Origin: Saccharopolyspora sp. SCSIO 74807
GTDB lineage: Bacteria; Actinomycetota; Actinomycetes; Mycobacteriales; Pseudonocardiaceae
Assembly (NCBI RefSeq): GCF_037023755.1
Contig: NZ_CP146100.1
Location: forward strand, 5,797,501 to 5,861,500
Reading direction: 5' to 3'
DNA length: 64,000 bases
The notes beneath the pieces were generated by a model. That model saw only the letters and a program-made list of their open reading frames with translations. It had not been told where the DNA came from and ran no database searches. Positions 1,973 to 31,720 of this stretch are shown piece by piece (position 1 is the stretch's first letter; every line of letters starts with the position of its first letter). Both the position numbers and the translations under genes were made by a program.

Positions 1973-3169
1973 ATGGAGGCCACGACACCGCACGCCGGGA
2001 CAGCCGTCGCTCTGCGCCGCAAAGAACTCGGCTGGACGCAACAGAAACTCGCCACCGAGGCGCGGCTATCGCAGTCGCTGGTCAGCAAGCTGGAAGTCGG
2101 TGATCGGCCGGCCACGCACGCGGTGCTGGCGCTGCTCGCGCGCACATTGCAGGTGCCGGTGGAGAAGCTGACCGGCCAGCCCTACGACGACGGCGGTAGC
2201 CGGGACGCGCGCACGCACGACGCGGTGGAACAGCTCCGCACGGTGTTGCGCAGGGCCGAGTTCCCCGCCGAGATCGCACCGAGGCCCTGCGACGAGCTTG
2301 CCGCCGATGTCGCCGAAACAGCGAAGCTGCGCCAGGACGCCGAATATCACAAACTCCTCGATCGCCTGCCCGCACTGCTCGCAGAGGTGTCCGCCGCAGC
2401 GTCGGACTCCTCCTCGGCAGACAGGCGACGAGCGAATCTGCTGTTGCTGCACAGCTATTTCGCCGCGCATAACGTCGTGCACCGCCTCGGCTATCGGGAT
2501 CTGGCCGAGTCGATCGAACCGAAACTCCTCGCCGCTGCCGAGCGCAGCGGCGACGACCTGGCAGTCGCGCTCGCCCACTGGGTTCGTGCGCAGTCGTTCC
2601 AATCTGCCGGTGATTACCGCCATGGCCTGGCTCTGATGGACACGACCCGAGGCGGTCTCGGCGACGAGCACGCGGAGCTCACTCCGGCCGAGCTCACGCT
2701 GCACGGCAGCTTGCACCTGCGGTCGGTCACGCTTGCTTCCCGCGCGGGCGATCTGGACCGGACCGAGGAACACCTGCGCACCGCCCGCTCGTTGGCGGAC
2801 CGGCTCAACGGCCCGGACCAAGTCCACTATGGACTCACATTCGGGCACGCCAACGTGACCACGCACGAAACCGCGGCCAGGGTGGAACTCGGCGACCATC
2901 CCGGAGCCCTGGCCGCCGCCGAGACATGGACGCCACCGGCGACAATGGCGCGTTCCCGGCGCGGACATCACTACATCGACCTGGCCCGCGCTCACCTGCA
3001 CAGCGGGAACCGAGCCGAGAGCCTCACCGCGCTCAAACACGCTCGTTCCATCGCACCCCAGCAAACGCGCCTGCACCCGATGACACGCGAAACGACCGCG
3101 GTACTGCTGAGCCTGCACCGCCGCAGCAACACCGACCTGTCCGAACTCGCCACCTGGCTCGGCCTCTGA
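1973..3169 (+). CDS. XRE-family regulator with long helical C-terminal domain
   Basis: The 398-residue product has a Cro/CI-type helix-turn-helix at about residues 8-65 (LRRKELGWTQQKLA, then LSQSLVSKLEVGDRPA), followed by a spacer and about 300 residues of alanine- and leucine-rich helices that look like tetratricopeptide-type repeats. Proteins of this build are common in actinomycetes as regulators of a linked gene. Its ATG is preceded by GGAG. The tandem TTGCACAGATC repeat about 75 bp upstream is a candidate operator. The next gene, about 60 bp downstream on the same strand, encodes a small SLOG-like nucleotide-binding protein, so the two may be a functional pair. The ligand is unknown. Confidence 0.85.
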   Translation: MEATTPHAGTAVALRRKELGWTQQKLATEARLSQSLVSKLEVGDRPATHAVLALLARTLQVPVEKLTGQPYDDGGSRDARTHDAVEQLRTVLRRAEFPAEIAPRPCDELAADVAETAKLRQDAEYHKLLDRLPALLAEVSAAASDSSSADRRRANLLLLHSYFAAHNVVHRLGYRDLAESIEPKLLAAAERSGDDLAVALAHWVRAQSFQSAGDYRHGLALMDTTRGGLGDEHAELTPAELTLHGSLHLRSVTLASRAGDLDRTEEHLRTARSLADRLNGPDQVHYGLTFGHANVTTHETAARVELGDHPGALAAAETWTPPATMARSRRGHHYIDLARAHLHSGNRAESLTALKHARSIAPQQTRLHPMTRETTAVLLSLHRRSNTDLSELATWLGL

Positions 3170-3232
3170 CGCCGACTGGGACGATCCGTACTGCTGATCT
3201 CTGCTCGAGCCCTCGACCGAAAGGTGTCGACC

Positions 3233-3709
3233 GTGCGCATCGGAATCACCGGCCACACGAACCTCACCCCTGCGACAAGTGTCCTGGTCCGCGAGGTGCT
3301 GGACGTTGAGCTGGCGGGGTACGACGCCGGTCTGATCGGCCTGAGCTGCCTCGCGCGCGGTGCCGATCAGCTGTTCGCGCGGGCAGTGCTCGACGCGGGC
3401 GGTTCGCTGGAAGTCGTGCTACCCGCCGCCGATTACCGCGCACGCAAGGTGAAACCGGACAACGCGGCAGATTTCGAGGAGTTGCTCGGGAAGGCGGCCG
3501 AGGTGCACACCATGCCGTTCGCCGAGTCGAACCGGGACGCGTACATGGCCGCGAGCGAACACGTCCTCAGCTCCGTCGACAAGATGCTCGCGGTCTGGGA
3601 CGGTCAGCCCGCCGGTGGCCACGGCGGTACCGGCGACGTCGTGCACGCCGCACGCGAACGCGGCATTCCCCTCACCGTCGTGTGGCCGGAAGGCGCCGCC
3701 CGCGCCTGA
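3233..3709 (+). CDS. Small SLOG/Rossmann-like nucleotide-binding protein
   Basis: The 158-residue product starts RIGITGHTNL and has a glycine-containing GADQLFARAVLDAGG segment and a final beta-strand PLTVVWP. This arrangement is typical of the SLOG/DprA-like Rossmann-type fold that binds nucleotides or nucleotide-derived ligands. I chose the GTG at 3233 because CGAAAGG at 3218-3224 sits 8 bases before it; a GTG at 3224 would overlap that site. It follows the XRE regulator closely and is probably cotranscribed. Whether it is a sensor, a hydrolase or part of a defence or stress system cannot be decided from the sequence. Confidence 0.7.
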   Translation: MRIGITGHTNLTPATSVLVREVLDVELAGYDAGLIGLSCLARGADQLFARAVLDAGGSLEVVLPAADYRARKVKPDNAADFEELLGKAAEVHTMPFAESNRDAYMAASEHVLSSVDKMLAVWDGQPAGGHGGTGDVVHAARERGIPLTVVWPEGAARA

Positions 3710-29481: not shown

Positions 29482-29528
29482 ACCCTCGTCGCCCCGGCGC
29501 AGCACCCACCGGGACGACGAGGGTTTCT
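29482..29528 (+). terminator. Intrinsic terminator after bioQ
   Basis: ACCCTCGTCG at 29482-29491 pairs perfectly with CGACGAGGGT at 29515-29524, with five further pairs inside, followed at once by TTTCTT. It begins 12 bases after the bioQ stop. Confidence 0.75.
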
Positions 29529-29690
29529 TGAAGCGGCGCAGCCGCTTGCGCCCACCACCTGAGCAACCGGCACCGCCGCGGGTTCTCAGGCGTCGTCTCG
29601 CGAGGACAGCGCCGACGCCGCGTAGGGCGCTACGTCAGGAGGCGATCCCGCAGCGAGACGGCGCCTGAGGTTCCGCCACCCGCCCCGCTA
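29527..29690 (+). repeat. Structured repeat element, copy 1
   Basis: The element starts with TCTTG and a short hairpin (AAGCGGC-GCA-GCCGCTT, 29531-29547), then a conserved GCAACCGGCACCGC linker, then a long structure. The outer helix pairs 29585-29601 with 29653-29669 (17 pairs, one wobble). Inside lies a second helix (CGCC with GGCG, then tandem G-A mismatches) and a terminal hairpin CGTAG-GGCG-CTACG. Copy 2 at 31517-31682 is in inverted orientation and keeps the pairing with different bases. The pair brackets the alcohol dehydrogenase and TetR genes. Confidence 0.85.
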
Positions 29691-29716
29691 CGCAAACCCT
29701 TCAAATATTCCGAAAA

Positions 29717-30766
29717 TCACGCGCCGATGGTGGCGGTGTCGATGACGAAGCGGTAGCGGACGTCGCTGTTCTCGACCCGCTCGTAGGCGGTGTTGACCTG
29801 GTCGGCGGAGATCAGCTCGATCTCCGCGCCGATGCCGTGCTCGGCGCAGAAATCCAGCATCTCCTGGGTCTCCGGCAGCCCGCCGATCATCGATCCGGCC
29901 AGCACCTTGTTGCCCGCCAGCAGCGAGAAGGCGTTGTAGGACAGCGGTTCGCCAGGCGCACCGACGTTGACCATCGCGCCGCCGACGCGCAGCAGCCCGA
30001 GGTAGGAGTCGACCGGGAGGTTCGCCGAGACCGTGTTCAGGATCAGGTCGAAGCGCCCGCGCAGGGTCTCGAAGGTCGACTCGTCGGCGGTGGCGAAGTA
30101 GTCCTGCGCGCCGAGCTTGAGCCCGTCCTCCTGCTTCTTGAGGCTCTGGCTGAGCACCGTCACCTCGGCGCCCATCGCCGCGGCCAGCTTCACCGCCACG
30201 TGCCCGAGCCCGCCGAGACCGATCACGGCGACCCGCTTGCCGGGCGCGGCCCCCCACTGGCGCAGCGGGGAGTAGGTGGTGATGCCTGCGCACAGCAGCG
30301 GAGCGGCGACGTCGAGCCCGATGCCGTCCGGGATCCGGCAGACGAAGGCGTCCTTGACCACGACCTGCTTGCTGTAGCCGCCGTAGGTGTTCTCGCCGTC
30401 GAAGCCGACGCCGTTGTAGGTCTGCACGTTGCCCTGGACGCAGAACTGCTCGGTGCCCTGCTGGCAGTACTCGCACTCGCCGCAGGAGTCGACCATGCAG
30501 CCCACGCCGACCCGGTCGCCGACCTGGTACTTCGTCACGTCCGAGCCGACCGCGGCGACCACGCCGGCGATCTCGTGGCCGGGCACCATCGGGAAGATGC
30601 CCTCGCCCCAGTCGCCCTTGGCCTGGTGGATGTCGCTGTGGCAGATGCCCGCGTAGGCGATGTCGATCAATACGTCGTCCGGACGCAGATCACGTCGCGC
30701 GATCGTCGTCGGCGCGAGGGGTGCCCCCGGCGTCGGCGCGGCGATAGCGTGCGTGGTCGTGCTCAT
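29717..30766 (-). CDS. Zinc-dependent alcohol dehydrogenase (cinnamyl-alcohol type)
   Basis: The 349-residue product has catalytic zinc ligands in GICHSDIH and PGHE, the structural zinc cysteines in CGECEYC with a further C, and the Rossmann motif [25 protein letters not shown] and the overall pattern are those of YahK/AdhA-like NADP-dependent aldehyde reductases. GGAGGG five bases before ATG 30766 fixes the start. It is divergent from a TetR gene that probably controls it. A likely role is detoxifying aldehydes; the substrate is unproven. It lies between the two inverted structured repeats. Confidence 0.9.
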
Positions 30767-30792
30767 GAACCCTCCAAGGAACAGCTCTGCGA

Positions 30793-30812
30793 AGGGCTCG
30801 CGTGAGAGCCCT
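30793..30812. promoter_or_regulatory. Inverted repeat between alcohol dehydrogenase and TetR genes
   Basis: AGGGCTC and GAGCCCT face each other across six bases, in the 105-bp divergent region. It is a candidate operator for the adjacent TetR-type protein. Confidence 0.45.
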
Positions 30813-30871
30813 CTTACATCAATACATAGCGGCACGGCCACTTATTCCGACCGGAGGACGTGATCCACGGC

Positions 30872-31480
30872 ATGGGCGGCAAGTACCACCACGGCGACCT
30901 GCGGGCCGCGCTCGTGCGCAGTTCGCTGGAGCTGATCGCCGAACGGGGCGTGGCCGGTTTCTCGGTCGCCGAGGCGGCCCGGCGGGCCAACGTCAGCCCC
31001 GGCGCGCCGTACCGGCACTTCCCGGAACGCGAGAGCCTGCTGGCCGCCGTCGCCACCACGACCGCCCAGCTGCTCACCGAGCGCGTGCAGCACGCCGCCG
31101 AGCAGCACGAGGACGCCGCGGACGCGCTCGCCGCCGCGGCCGGGGCCTACACCGAGTACCTGATCGAACGCCGCGCCGGGATGCACCTGATCTACGCCGA
31201 CGGCCTGCACGGTCCCCGGTACGCCGAGCTGCACGAGCAGACCCGGCGGCTGACCGACCAGTTCCTGCTGCGCTGCCTGGAGGTTTCGGCCACGCCGCAG
31301 GACGCCCTGGAGCTGATGGAGCAGCTGTTCACCCAGGCGCACGGCTACGGCATGTTCTGGCTCGACGGCGTCTTCGCCAAGCACGGCTACTCCGCGGAAC
31401 TGGTCGTGCGCAAATCCACCCGCGCAGCCCGCAGCGCGATCTACGGGCATCGGCTCGCGGGGGACCCGAGCCGTCTTTAG
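30872..31480 (+). CDS. TetR-family regulator
   Basis: The 202-residue product begins GGKYHHGDLRAALVRSSLEL, the common opening of one TetR subgroup, followed by FSVAEAARRANVSPGAPYRH as helix-turn-helix. The C-terminal domain (TetR_C_33-like pattern) binds an unknown ligand. A GTG at 30860 is also in frame but lies only one base after GGAGGA, so ATG 30872 is preferred. It probably represses the divergent alcohol dehydrogenase gene. A TetR plus aldehyde-reducing ADH pair is a usual arrangement for aldehyde stress response. Confidence 0.85.
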   Translation: MGGKYHHGDLRAALVRSSLELIAERGVAGFSVAEAARRANVSPGAPYRHFPERESLLAAVATTTAQLLTERVQHAAEQHEDAADALAAAAGAYTEYLIERRAGMHLIYADGLHGPRYAELHEQTRRLTDQFLLRCLEVSATPQDALELMEQLFTQAHGYGMFWLDGVFAKHGYSAELVVRKSTRAARSAIYGHRLAGDPSRL

Positions 31481-31516
31481 GTCGTCACTAAGGAGTTTTT
31501 CCAGAAAGGTCTGCGT

Positions 31517-31682
31517 GGCGGTGCCGGTAGCGGAACCTCAGCGCCTTCCTCGCTCCGGGATCGATTTCTGACGTAGCCACCCTACGCGGCGAAATCGCTG
31601 TCCTCGCGAGGAAGCCGCTGAGAACCCGCCGCGGTGCCGGTTGCTTTCATAGCCACTGCTCAGCGGCTACGCCGCTGACAAG
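31517..31682 (-). repeat. Structured repeat element, copy 2 (inverted)
   Basis: Read on the minus strand, this copy has the same order as copy 1: TCTTG, hairpin TCAGCGGC-GTA-GCCGCTGA (31660-31678), GCAACCGGCACCGC linker, outer helix (31537-31553 with 31606-31622, 16 of 17 paired), an inner CGATTTC/GAAATCG helix and the terminal CGTAG/CTACG hairpin. In the outer helix five base pairs differ from copy 1 on both sides and still pair. It is placed downstream of the TetR gene and of the MFS gene. Confidence 0.85.
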
Positions 31683-31720
31683 ACAAGACCAAAGATCGTA
31701 CTGAAACGAAGTGCTGCCGG

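Follow-up and report, generated by a model that had tools for sequence, protein, structure and literature searches.

The window, that is, the whole 64,000-nucleotide stretch of the Saccharopolyspora sp. SCSIO 74807 genome that was analysed, contains two inverted copies of a structured repeat. Copy 1 (29527-29690) and the inverted copy 2 (31517-31682) are both present as the first-pass annotation had described them, and each adjoins the stop codon of a host gene; from their open reading frames we take these genes to be ADH-like and TetR-like, respectively. The strand on which the structure was originally read, hereafter the reader strand, is the plus strand for copy 1 and the minus strand for copy 2. 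The features of the locus are as follows.

29524..29715, folded strand +: copy 1, delimited as the complete segment that the sibling strain lacks (no counterpart at the orthologous locus)
29531..29547, +: copy 1 terminal hairpin, AAGCGGC-GCA-GCCGCTT, with a GNA triloop on the reader strand (sequence, loop survey)
29578..29676, +: copy 1 main hairpin (sequence, folding, consensus fold, pairing survey)
29585..29601, +: copy 1 outer helix, 5' arm (sequence)
29653..29669, +: copy 1 outer helix, 3' arm (sequence)
29717..30841, -: presumed ADH-like host gene, outside the element, stop codon adjoining copy 1 (ORF)
30860..31480, +: presumed TetR-like host gene, outside the element, stop codon adjoining copy 2 (ORF)
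31489..31715, folded strand -: copy 2 in full, with degenerate ends and approximate, provisional limits (profile core and flanks)
31537..31553, -: copy 2 outer helix, one arm (sequence)
31606..31622, -: copy 2 outer helix, other arm (sequence)
31660..31678, -: copy 2 terminal hairpin, TCAGCGGC-GTA-GCCGCTGA read on the minus strand (sequence, loop survey)

The main hairpin of copy 1 is composed of a GCGG/CCGC base, a conserved GTT/GTT internal loop, a 17-pair covarying outer helix, a covarying inner helix and an apical stem. The conserved core of copy 2, as defined by the profile, spans 31509-31676, and by eye its flanks look like those of sister copies. The inverted-repeat arms 29562-29627/31580-31645 and 29629-29702/31504-31577 are 83% and 78% complementary, and the mean column identity of the two stretches, taken with some flank, is 82%. 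The first-pass account of the outer helix was borne out: on the reader strand, positions 6, 7, 10, 11 and 12 are changed on both sides with pairing kept, a T·G wobble at position 9 becomes C-G, and a single pair, at position 8, is lost, with G opposite G in copy 2. The arms thus change from CTCAGGCGTCGTCTCGC/GCGAGACGGCGCCTGAG in copy 1 to CTCAGCGGCTTCCTCGC/GCGAGGAAGGCGCTGAG in copy 2.

When folded on the reader strand, both copies were better than all of 200 shuffles (z -3.75 for copy 1 and -4.14 for copy 2). On the other strand, 12 of 200 shuffles were as good as copy 1 (z -1.71), and none of 200 was as good as copy 2 (z -4.76). Since copy 2 folds well on both strands, the strand is not decided by single folds.

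Spread and anatomy of the family

Further copies were recovered by sequence and covariance-model searches both in SCSIO 74807 and in its relatives, as the first-pass annotation had proposed. In the SCSIO 74807 genome (6.69 Mb, one contig) 40 candidates were scored and all 40 were matches, eight of them under 100 bases; the core measures ~165 bp. A covariance model, R1, built from 63 copies matched 56 of 200 sampled genomes of Pseudonocardiaceae, spread over 14 of 46 genera; no more than 15 candidates were scored in any one genome. Carriers among the matches listed include Saccharopolyspora species, Amycolatopsis bartoniae, A. rhizosphaerae, Saccharomonospora sp. CUA-673 and Sciscionella sediminilitoris. 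Searches of plasmids and phages gave no match to the element, nor did one exact pattern in viral contigs. No Rfam family matches the element in the window at the gathering threshold; when six loci were searched up to an E value of 5, the sole match fell outside the element. A literature search (open-licence papers, top-ranked results) returned nothing apparently about this repeat.

In order on the reader strand, the element consists of a right end, the small hairpin AAGCGGC-GNA-GCCGCTT, a GCAACCGGCACCGC-like linker, the long hairpin, another linker and a left end, which adjoins the stop codon. The long hairpin has the form GCGG-GTT-CTCAG...CTGAG-GTT-CCGC and includes conserved asymmetric inner loops, the inner helix and the apical stem. 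A stop-free run spans 196 of 222 examined copies, which is common at high G+C; at its size the element would not accommodate a transposase gene. Two SCSIO 74807 loci contain frame-only copies: the long hairpin is missing from L063 and present in its intact sibling-strain counterpart L196, and L226, which corresponds to intact L212, suffered the loss between GGTGGTCGGG repeats.

Several variants were observed. A second small, CCCGCCCGTCACCCGACCACCACCCCC-like insert of ~50 bp is found repeatedly within the hairpin, in L107, L087, L145 (S. rosea), L251, L257 and L265; it occurs in different genera and may be a smaller repeat nested there. In L074, L075, L078, L097, L115 and L164 the junction on one side of the hairpin begins with GCGGCCCC instead of GCGGAACCTCAG. 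Two model matches of like orientation lie ~120 bp from each other in one genome (G136, L248/L263), and the second is weak.

Covariation and strand preference of the fold

After eight loci (L039-L046) had been judged chance matches and dropped, 14 of 154 full copies failed the core pattern, and the 140 remaining cores were reduced to 84 representatives. Alignment A2 contains 68 of these 84, while A3 consists of 62 sequences and L001 (63 in all). Sequences that were truncated, contained long insertions or had decayed arms were omitted from both, and the covariation counts therefore lean to intact copies. In the 63 diverse copies of A3 the helices are not freely broken, with standard pairs in 96.5% of pair cells compared to 81.8% in shuffled controls and at most 49.2% when the partner was slid by 1-3 columns. 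The covariation score was 0.384, compared to 0.122 shuffled and at most 0.079 slid. Significance was assessed against a tree-based null in which substitutions were re-placed on a FastTree tree (1,359,000 null scores; our own R-scape-like script, not R-scape itself). Fifteen of 37 pairs were significant at E<0.05, as was none of 11,288 non-structural column pairs.

The inner-region consensus fold has an energy of -61.9 kcal/mol on the reader strand versus -34.9 kcal/mol on the other strand, and 63 of 68 single copies fold better on the reader strand. Two pairs are fixed wobbles: one is G·U on the reader strand in 67 of the 68 copies and the other in all 68, and both read as A·C on the opposite strand. 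Among the pairs where no wobble is fixed, G·U occurs in 37 cells and A·C in 17, counted as cells and not as independent events; 12 such pairs lean towards G·U, five towards A·C and one is tied. A cruciform was considered and rejected, since it would show no wobble lean and the wobbles are one-sided. The original proposal of a folded single strand, whether of RNA or of single-stranded DNA, is reasonable, as both the consensus fold and the G·U wobbles favour one strand. Nearly all of the 68 copies retain the GTT/GTT internal loop, the fixed G·U pairs and the asymmetric inner loop, and unpaired bases and wobbles are conserved across genera.

Mobility, target sites and orientation

The mobile nature of the element was not visible in the first-pass annotation. 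We compared SCSIO 74807 with a sibling strain, Saccharopolyspora sp. HNM0986 (G041), which is ~99.5% identical in the loci compared; another genome labelled as the same species as HNM0986 (G067) has the same contigs and places. Orthologous sites tested at 10 loci included two clean filled/empty pairs, L193/L227 and L204/L225. In one clean insertion TTCCTA[GGTTTG...CTCTCC]TACCGCC corresponds to the empty site TTCCTACCGCC, and in the other CCCCTA[GGAGAG...AGAACC]TAGGTGG corresponds to CCCCTAGGTGG; both insertions are consistent with a TA duplication. Presence/absence was untidy at three further sites (L203/L224, L195/L229 and L216/L228), which are empty but not clean, and the inner part was lost or diverged at L010 and L212. 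Around L010 and L223 the two strains are only ~94-96% identical, compared to ~99% or more at most other compared loci, which suggests that this segment may have recombined.

Copy 1 of the window (L001 1498-1689) is absent at the orthologous HNM0986 locus L147, where six other bases are found. No target duplication is visible at this copy; together with the 6-bp difference of the empty site, this makes a deletion in the sibling possible.

At L017, L019 and L028 the element is also present in the sibling, interrupted after GGTAGC by foreign sequence, and the sibling contig then ends. The interruptions, seen in L222 (reverse strand), L220 (after 1914) and L221 (after 1910), respectively, occur at one common point, after GGTAGC and before GGAACCTCAG, and consist of IS-like DNA of two kinds. 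The end of one interrupting DNA has a weak integrase-core similarity (rve_3, E 6e-5, below cut-off). Since the break point is common to all three copies, other insertion sequences may insert preferentially into the element.

Terminal inverted repeats are present in S. rosea and HNM0986 copies and degenerate in many SCSIO 74807 copies. In S. rosea, where copies are bounded by GTGCCTGTCTTTGAACTC-like ends, the triplets beside both ends (TCA or TGA) match in seven of 12 end pairs, all found by pattern in this species. Of the five that do not match, L113, L119 and L145 are true misses; in L130 and in one L107 pairing, the two ends probably belong to different copies. Copies nested inside copies at CTCAG were also observed in S. 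rosea.

An autonomous element with the same ends was found in S. rosea. The first 14 bases of the MITE end GTGCCTGTCTTTGAACTC are common to the end GTGCCTGTCTTTGATCTTGG of an IS5 element (L129; near-identical sequence in L157, L076 and partly L172, all of S. rosea), which interrupts a MITE copy with TCA on both sides. Its transposase belongs to the IS5 family (NF033580, DUF4096 and DDE_Tnp_1). Target sites of the form TNA or TA are those of the IS1031/IS427-like subgroups of IS5. A search for the S. rosea transposase in SCSIO 74807 revealed two partial matches only, and no autonomous partner was found in that genome; the SCSIO 74807 copies would, by analogy, have been moved by an IS5-family transposase. 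Elsewhere in S. rosea L129, at 2032-3543, a large transposase gene (DDE_5/NF041680) directly adjoins the left end of a MITE.

Neighbouring genes were predicted from simple codon scores. In 118 of 158 copies the upstream gene has the same orientation as the element, and the median distance from the upstream stop is 20-23 nt in the two largest classes. The neighbours of the 158 copies are arranged as 64 co-oriented, 50 convergent, 25 mirrored and 11 divergent, with one neighbour missing in eight.

To relate orientation to replication, we took dnaA as marking the origin and placed the terminus halfway along the genome. Of 167 listed copies, some of which are orthologous between species, 132 are oriented such that the strand opposite the reader strand runs with the fork. 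By genome, fork-aligned copies number 30/40 in SCSIO 74807 (G000), 19/20 in G016, 22/28 in G001, 18/21 in G017, 21/26 in G003, 13/21 in G004 and 9/11 in G073. Sampled genes run with the fork in 59-61% of cases in four genomes, and the bias over this baseline has p values of 0.00084 (G016), 0.023 (G017), 0.035 (G001) and, for SCSIO 74807 alone, 0.054. An orientation that follows the fork, tied to the sliding clamp, is reported in PMC5371812 for several insertion-sequence families, IS200/IS605 among them.

Origin of the paired changes and role of the fold

Between the two sibling strains, 24 orthologous copies differ by 48 substitutions in 4,067 element sites (1.18%), compared to 0.88% in the next 45 bp and 0.56% in 400-bp flanks. 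No host-level constraint was thus seen between the siblings, the element being no more conserved than the adjoining 45 bp. The structure sites of the 24 copy pairs reveal six double compensated changes, three single changes that keep pairing and six pairs that are unpaired in one strain, with another 10 changes at unpaired sites. Independent point changes would give ~0.12 doubles. Three of the six doubles affect the same apical pair, for which other copies could be donors. The A-T state at alignment columns 48/108 occurs in one of 222 examined copies, and the T-A state at 59/97 is found in only one other copy among the 222, from another genus; no donor for either was detected among the examined copies of either strain, those of the sibling being incomplete. 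Because the 48/108 state is so rare, both arms are most simply taken to have been rewritten together by a DNA process, of which template switching within a DNA hairpin is the simplest. Part of the paired changes must stem from arm-to-arm copying or gene conversion.

Covariation is widely read as proof of conserved RNA. Here paired changes arise within about half a percent of genome divergence and include one state unique among the examined copies, and DNA hairpins can therefore make RNA-like covariation. Such rapid double changes weaken covariation as proof of selection. The first-pass claim of a selected structure accordingly stands in part: the covariation is real across many copies and genera, but, given the excess of doubles and the lack of extra conservation between the siblings, it is not in itself a mark of selection.

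Paired changes were also followed in one small genus of seven genomes with one to four model matches each. In five of them the element lies behind a gene that, judging from its open reading frame, we take to be gatB. Two of these genomes, with a single match each, differ by eight double compensated pairs, two single changes that keep pairing and one pair broken in one genome; three of 26 unpaired sites differ. In another pair of species, two double changes are the only differences in the hairpin. Insertions and deletions abound in the DNA on the far side of the gatB-linked element, and the fifth gatB copy (G166) has three broken helix pairs. Fixed wobbles and loops stay even though arm copying would erase them, and selection on the fold therefore likely persists.

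Taken together, we consider that the repeat is very probably an IS5-type MITE with a one-strand folded domain that covaries through both DNA rewriting and selection. It is short and non-coding, is carried by many soil actinobacteria, and occurs in many dispersed copies with terminal inverted repeats, target duplication and empty sites. According to this model, a MITE of ~190-230 bp would have spread through part of Pseudonocardiaceae, moved in trans by an IS5-family DDE transposase, the partner of which was found only in S. rosea. Its target would be TA or TNA, often a stop codon such as C-TGA-G or C-TAG; duplication of such a target restores the stop, and the element ends up in the 3' untranslated region. 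The folded domain would comprise the long imperfect hairpin and the small GNA-loop hairpin. Arm-to-arm copying at replication and gene conversion between copies may rewrite both arms at once, and selection may maintain the reader-strand fold and its unpaired bases. The fold presumably has a selective reason, with the folded strand acting as RNA or as single-stranded DNA.

That the covariation is wholly mutational, produced by template switching between arms and conversion between copies with no selection on the fold, is doubtful, yet a real possibility. The excess of doubles, the two donorless states and the loss of hairpins in one step are in line with it. Against it, the mismatches (GTT/GTT loop, fixed G·U pairs and asymmetric inner loop) survive, and the wobbles favour one strand.

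A function of the folded strand as single-stranded DNA, comparable to attC sites or IS200/IS605 ends, e.g. in replication-coupled transposition, is likewise conceivable, although we view it with doubt. It agrees with folding on one strand and with the fork-linked orientation, and also with the terminal loops. In 158 of 196 distinct copies the stem of the terminal hairpin is perfect over six pairs or more. In this loop survey, which includes sibling-strain copies so that the counts are not independent, all 106 triloops are GNA on the reader strand, and 43 of 46 tetraloops have G first and A last, 37 of these 43 with a pyrimidine at the third position; GNRA accounts for only six of the 46. The d(cGNAg) and d(cGNNAg) sequences are exceptionally stable DNA loops. 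The loop pattern fits these rather than RNA GNRA loops, as far as the DNA-loop rule applies; a literature search on stable DNA loops gave no support either way. However, the well-folding strand is the leading-strand template, which is less exposed, in 79% of listed copies, TNA duplications contradict an HUH mechanism, and IS5 transposition uses double-stranded DNA. A fuller version, quite unlikely in our estimate, would make the element a DNA transposon whose functional core is a single-stranded DNA hairpin folded on one strand, with terminal loops of the stable DNA type, arms renewed by arm-to-arm copying and insertion in step with forks, so that covariation would read DNA and not RNA structure.

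It is unlikely that the element is a conserved regulatory RNA, its reader-strand transcript being antisense to the upstream gene, with selection at the host level and mobility incidental. Tree-tested covariation, unpaired bases and wobbles kept across genera, the position behind gatB in five of seven genomes with DNA scrambled on one side, and the eight compensated pairs between the two single-match genomes all speak for such an RNA. Antisense transcription enriched at gene 3' ends is described in a transcriptome report on Saccharopolyspora erythraea (PMC3610266), a study not about this element. Nevertheless, the element is no better conserved between siblings than the adjacent 45 bp, whole copies and hairpins are gained and lost, one of five gatB copies has broken helix pairs, Rfam contains no match and the tetraloops are mostly not GNRA. 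Finally, a REP/REPIN-type element moved by a RAYT (Y1) transposase is highly improbable: the repeat is palindromic, intergenic and of high copy number, and Y1_Tnp matches occur in G000 (two), G067, G009 and G016, but Y1_Tnp is absent from six of 10 element-rich genomes searched (G001-G004, G017 and G018), and the inverted ends and TNA duplication are as in IS5 elements.

We return to the preferred reading, an IS5-type MITE. The repeat is like IS5-family MITEs in being short, lacking a transposase gene, having inverted ends and a TA/TNA duplication and sharing 14 end bases with the S. rosea insertion sequence. It differs from them in its long one-strand hairpin with many compensated pair changes and in its position behind stop codons, aligned with replication. 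On this reading the repeat defines a new family of IS5-type MITEs, unusual for its strand-specific hairpin with matched arms; it is common, mobile and located behind genes in Saccharopolyspora, a genus of antibiotic producers. The family still bears marks of one-strand selection, which makes it a natural test bed for separating selection from DNA rewriting.

IS200/IS605 and REP/REPIN elements, which are moved by Y1 HUH transposases, resemble the repeat in their strand-specific hairpins and differ in that the repeat has a TNA duplication. ERIC, NEMIS/Correia, RUP and CIR share with the repeat an intergenic location, a MITE-like character and stem-loops, and differ from it in sequence, host group and mover. 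The sections of PMC2229807 devoted to them report ERIC and NEMIS as active in mRNA and CIR structures as conserved between genera, and do not describe the strand-biased wobble and rapid paired changes seen here.

Integron attC sites share with the repeat an imperfect hairpin, a conserved fold, variable arms and the importance of one strand. The repeat, in which no attC box arrangement was discerned by eye, differs in its dispersed loci, inverted ends and target duplication.
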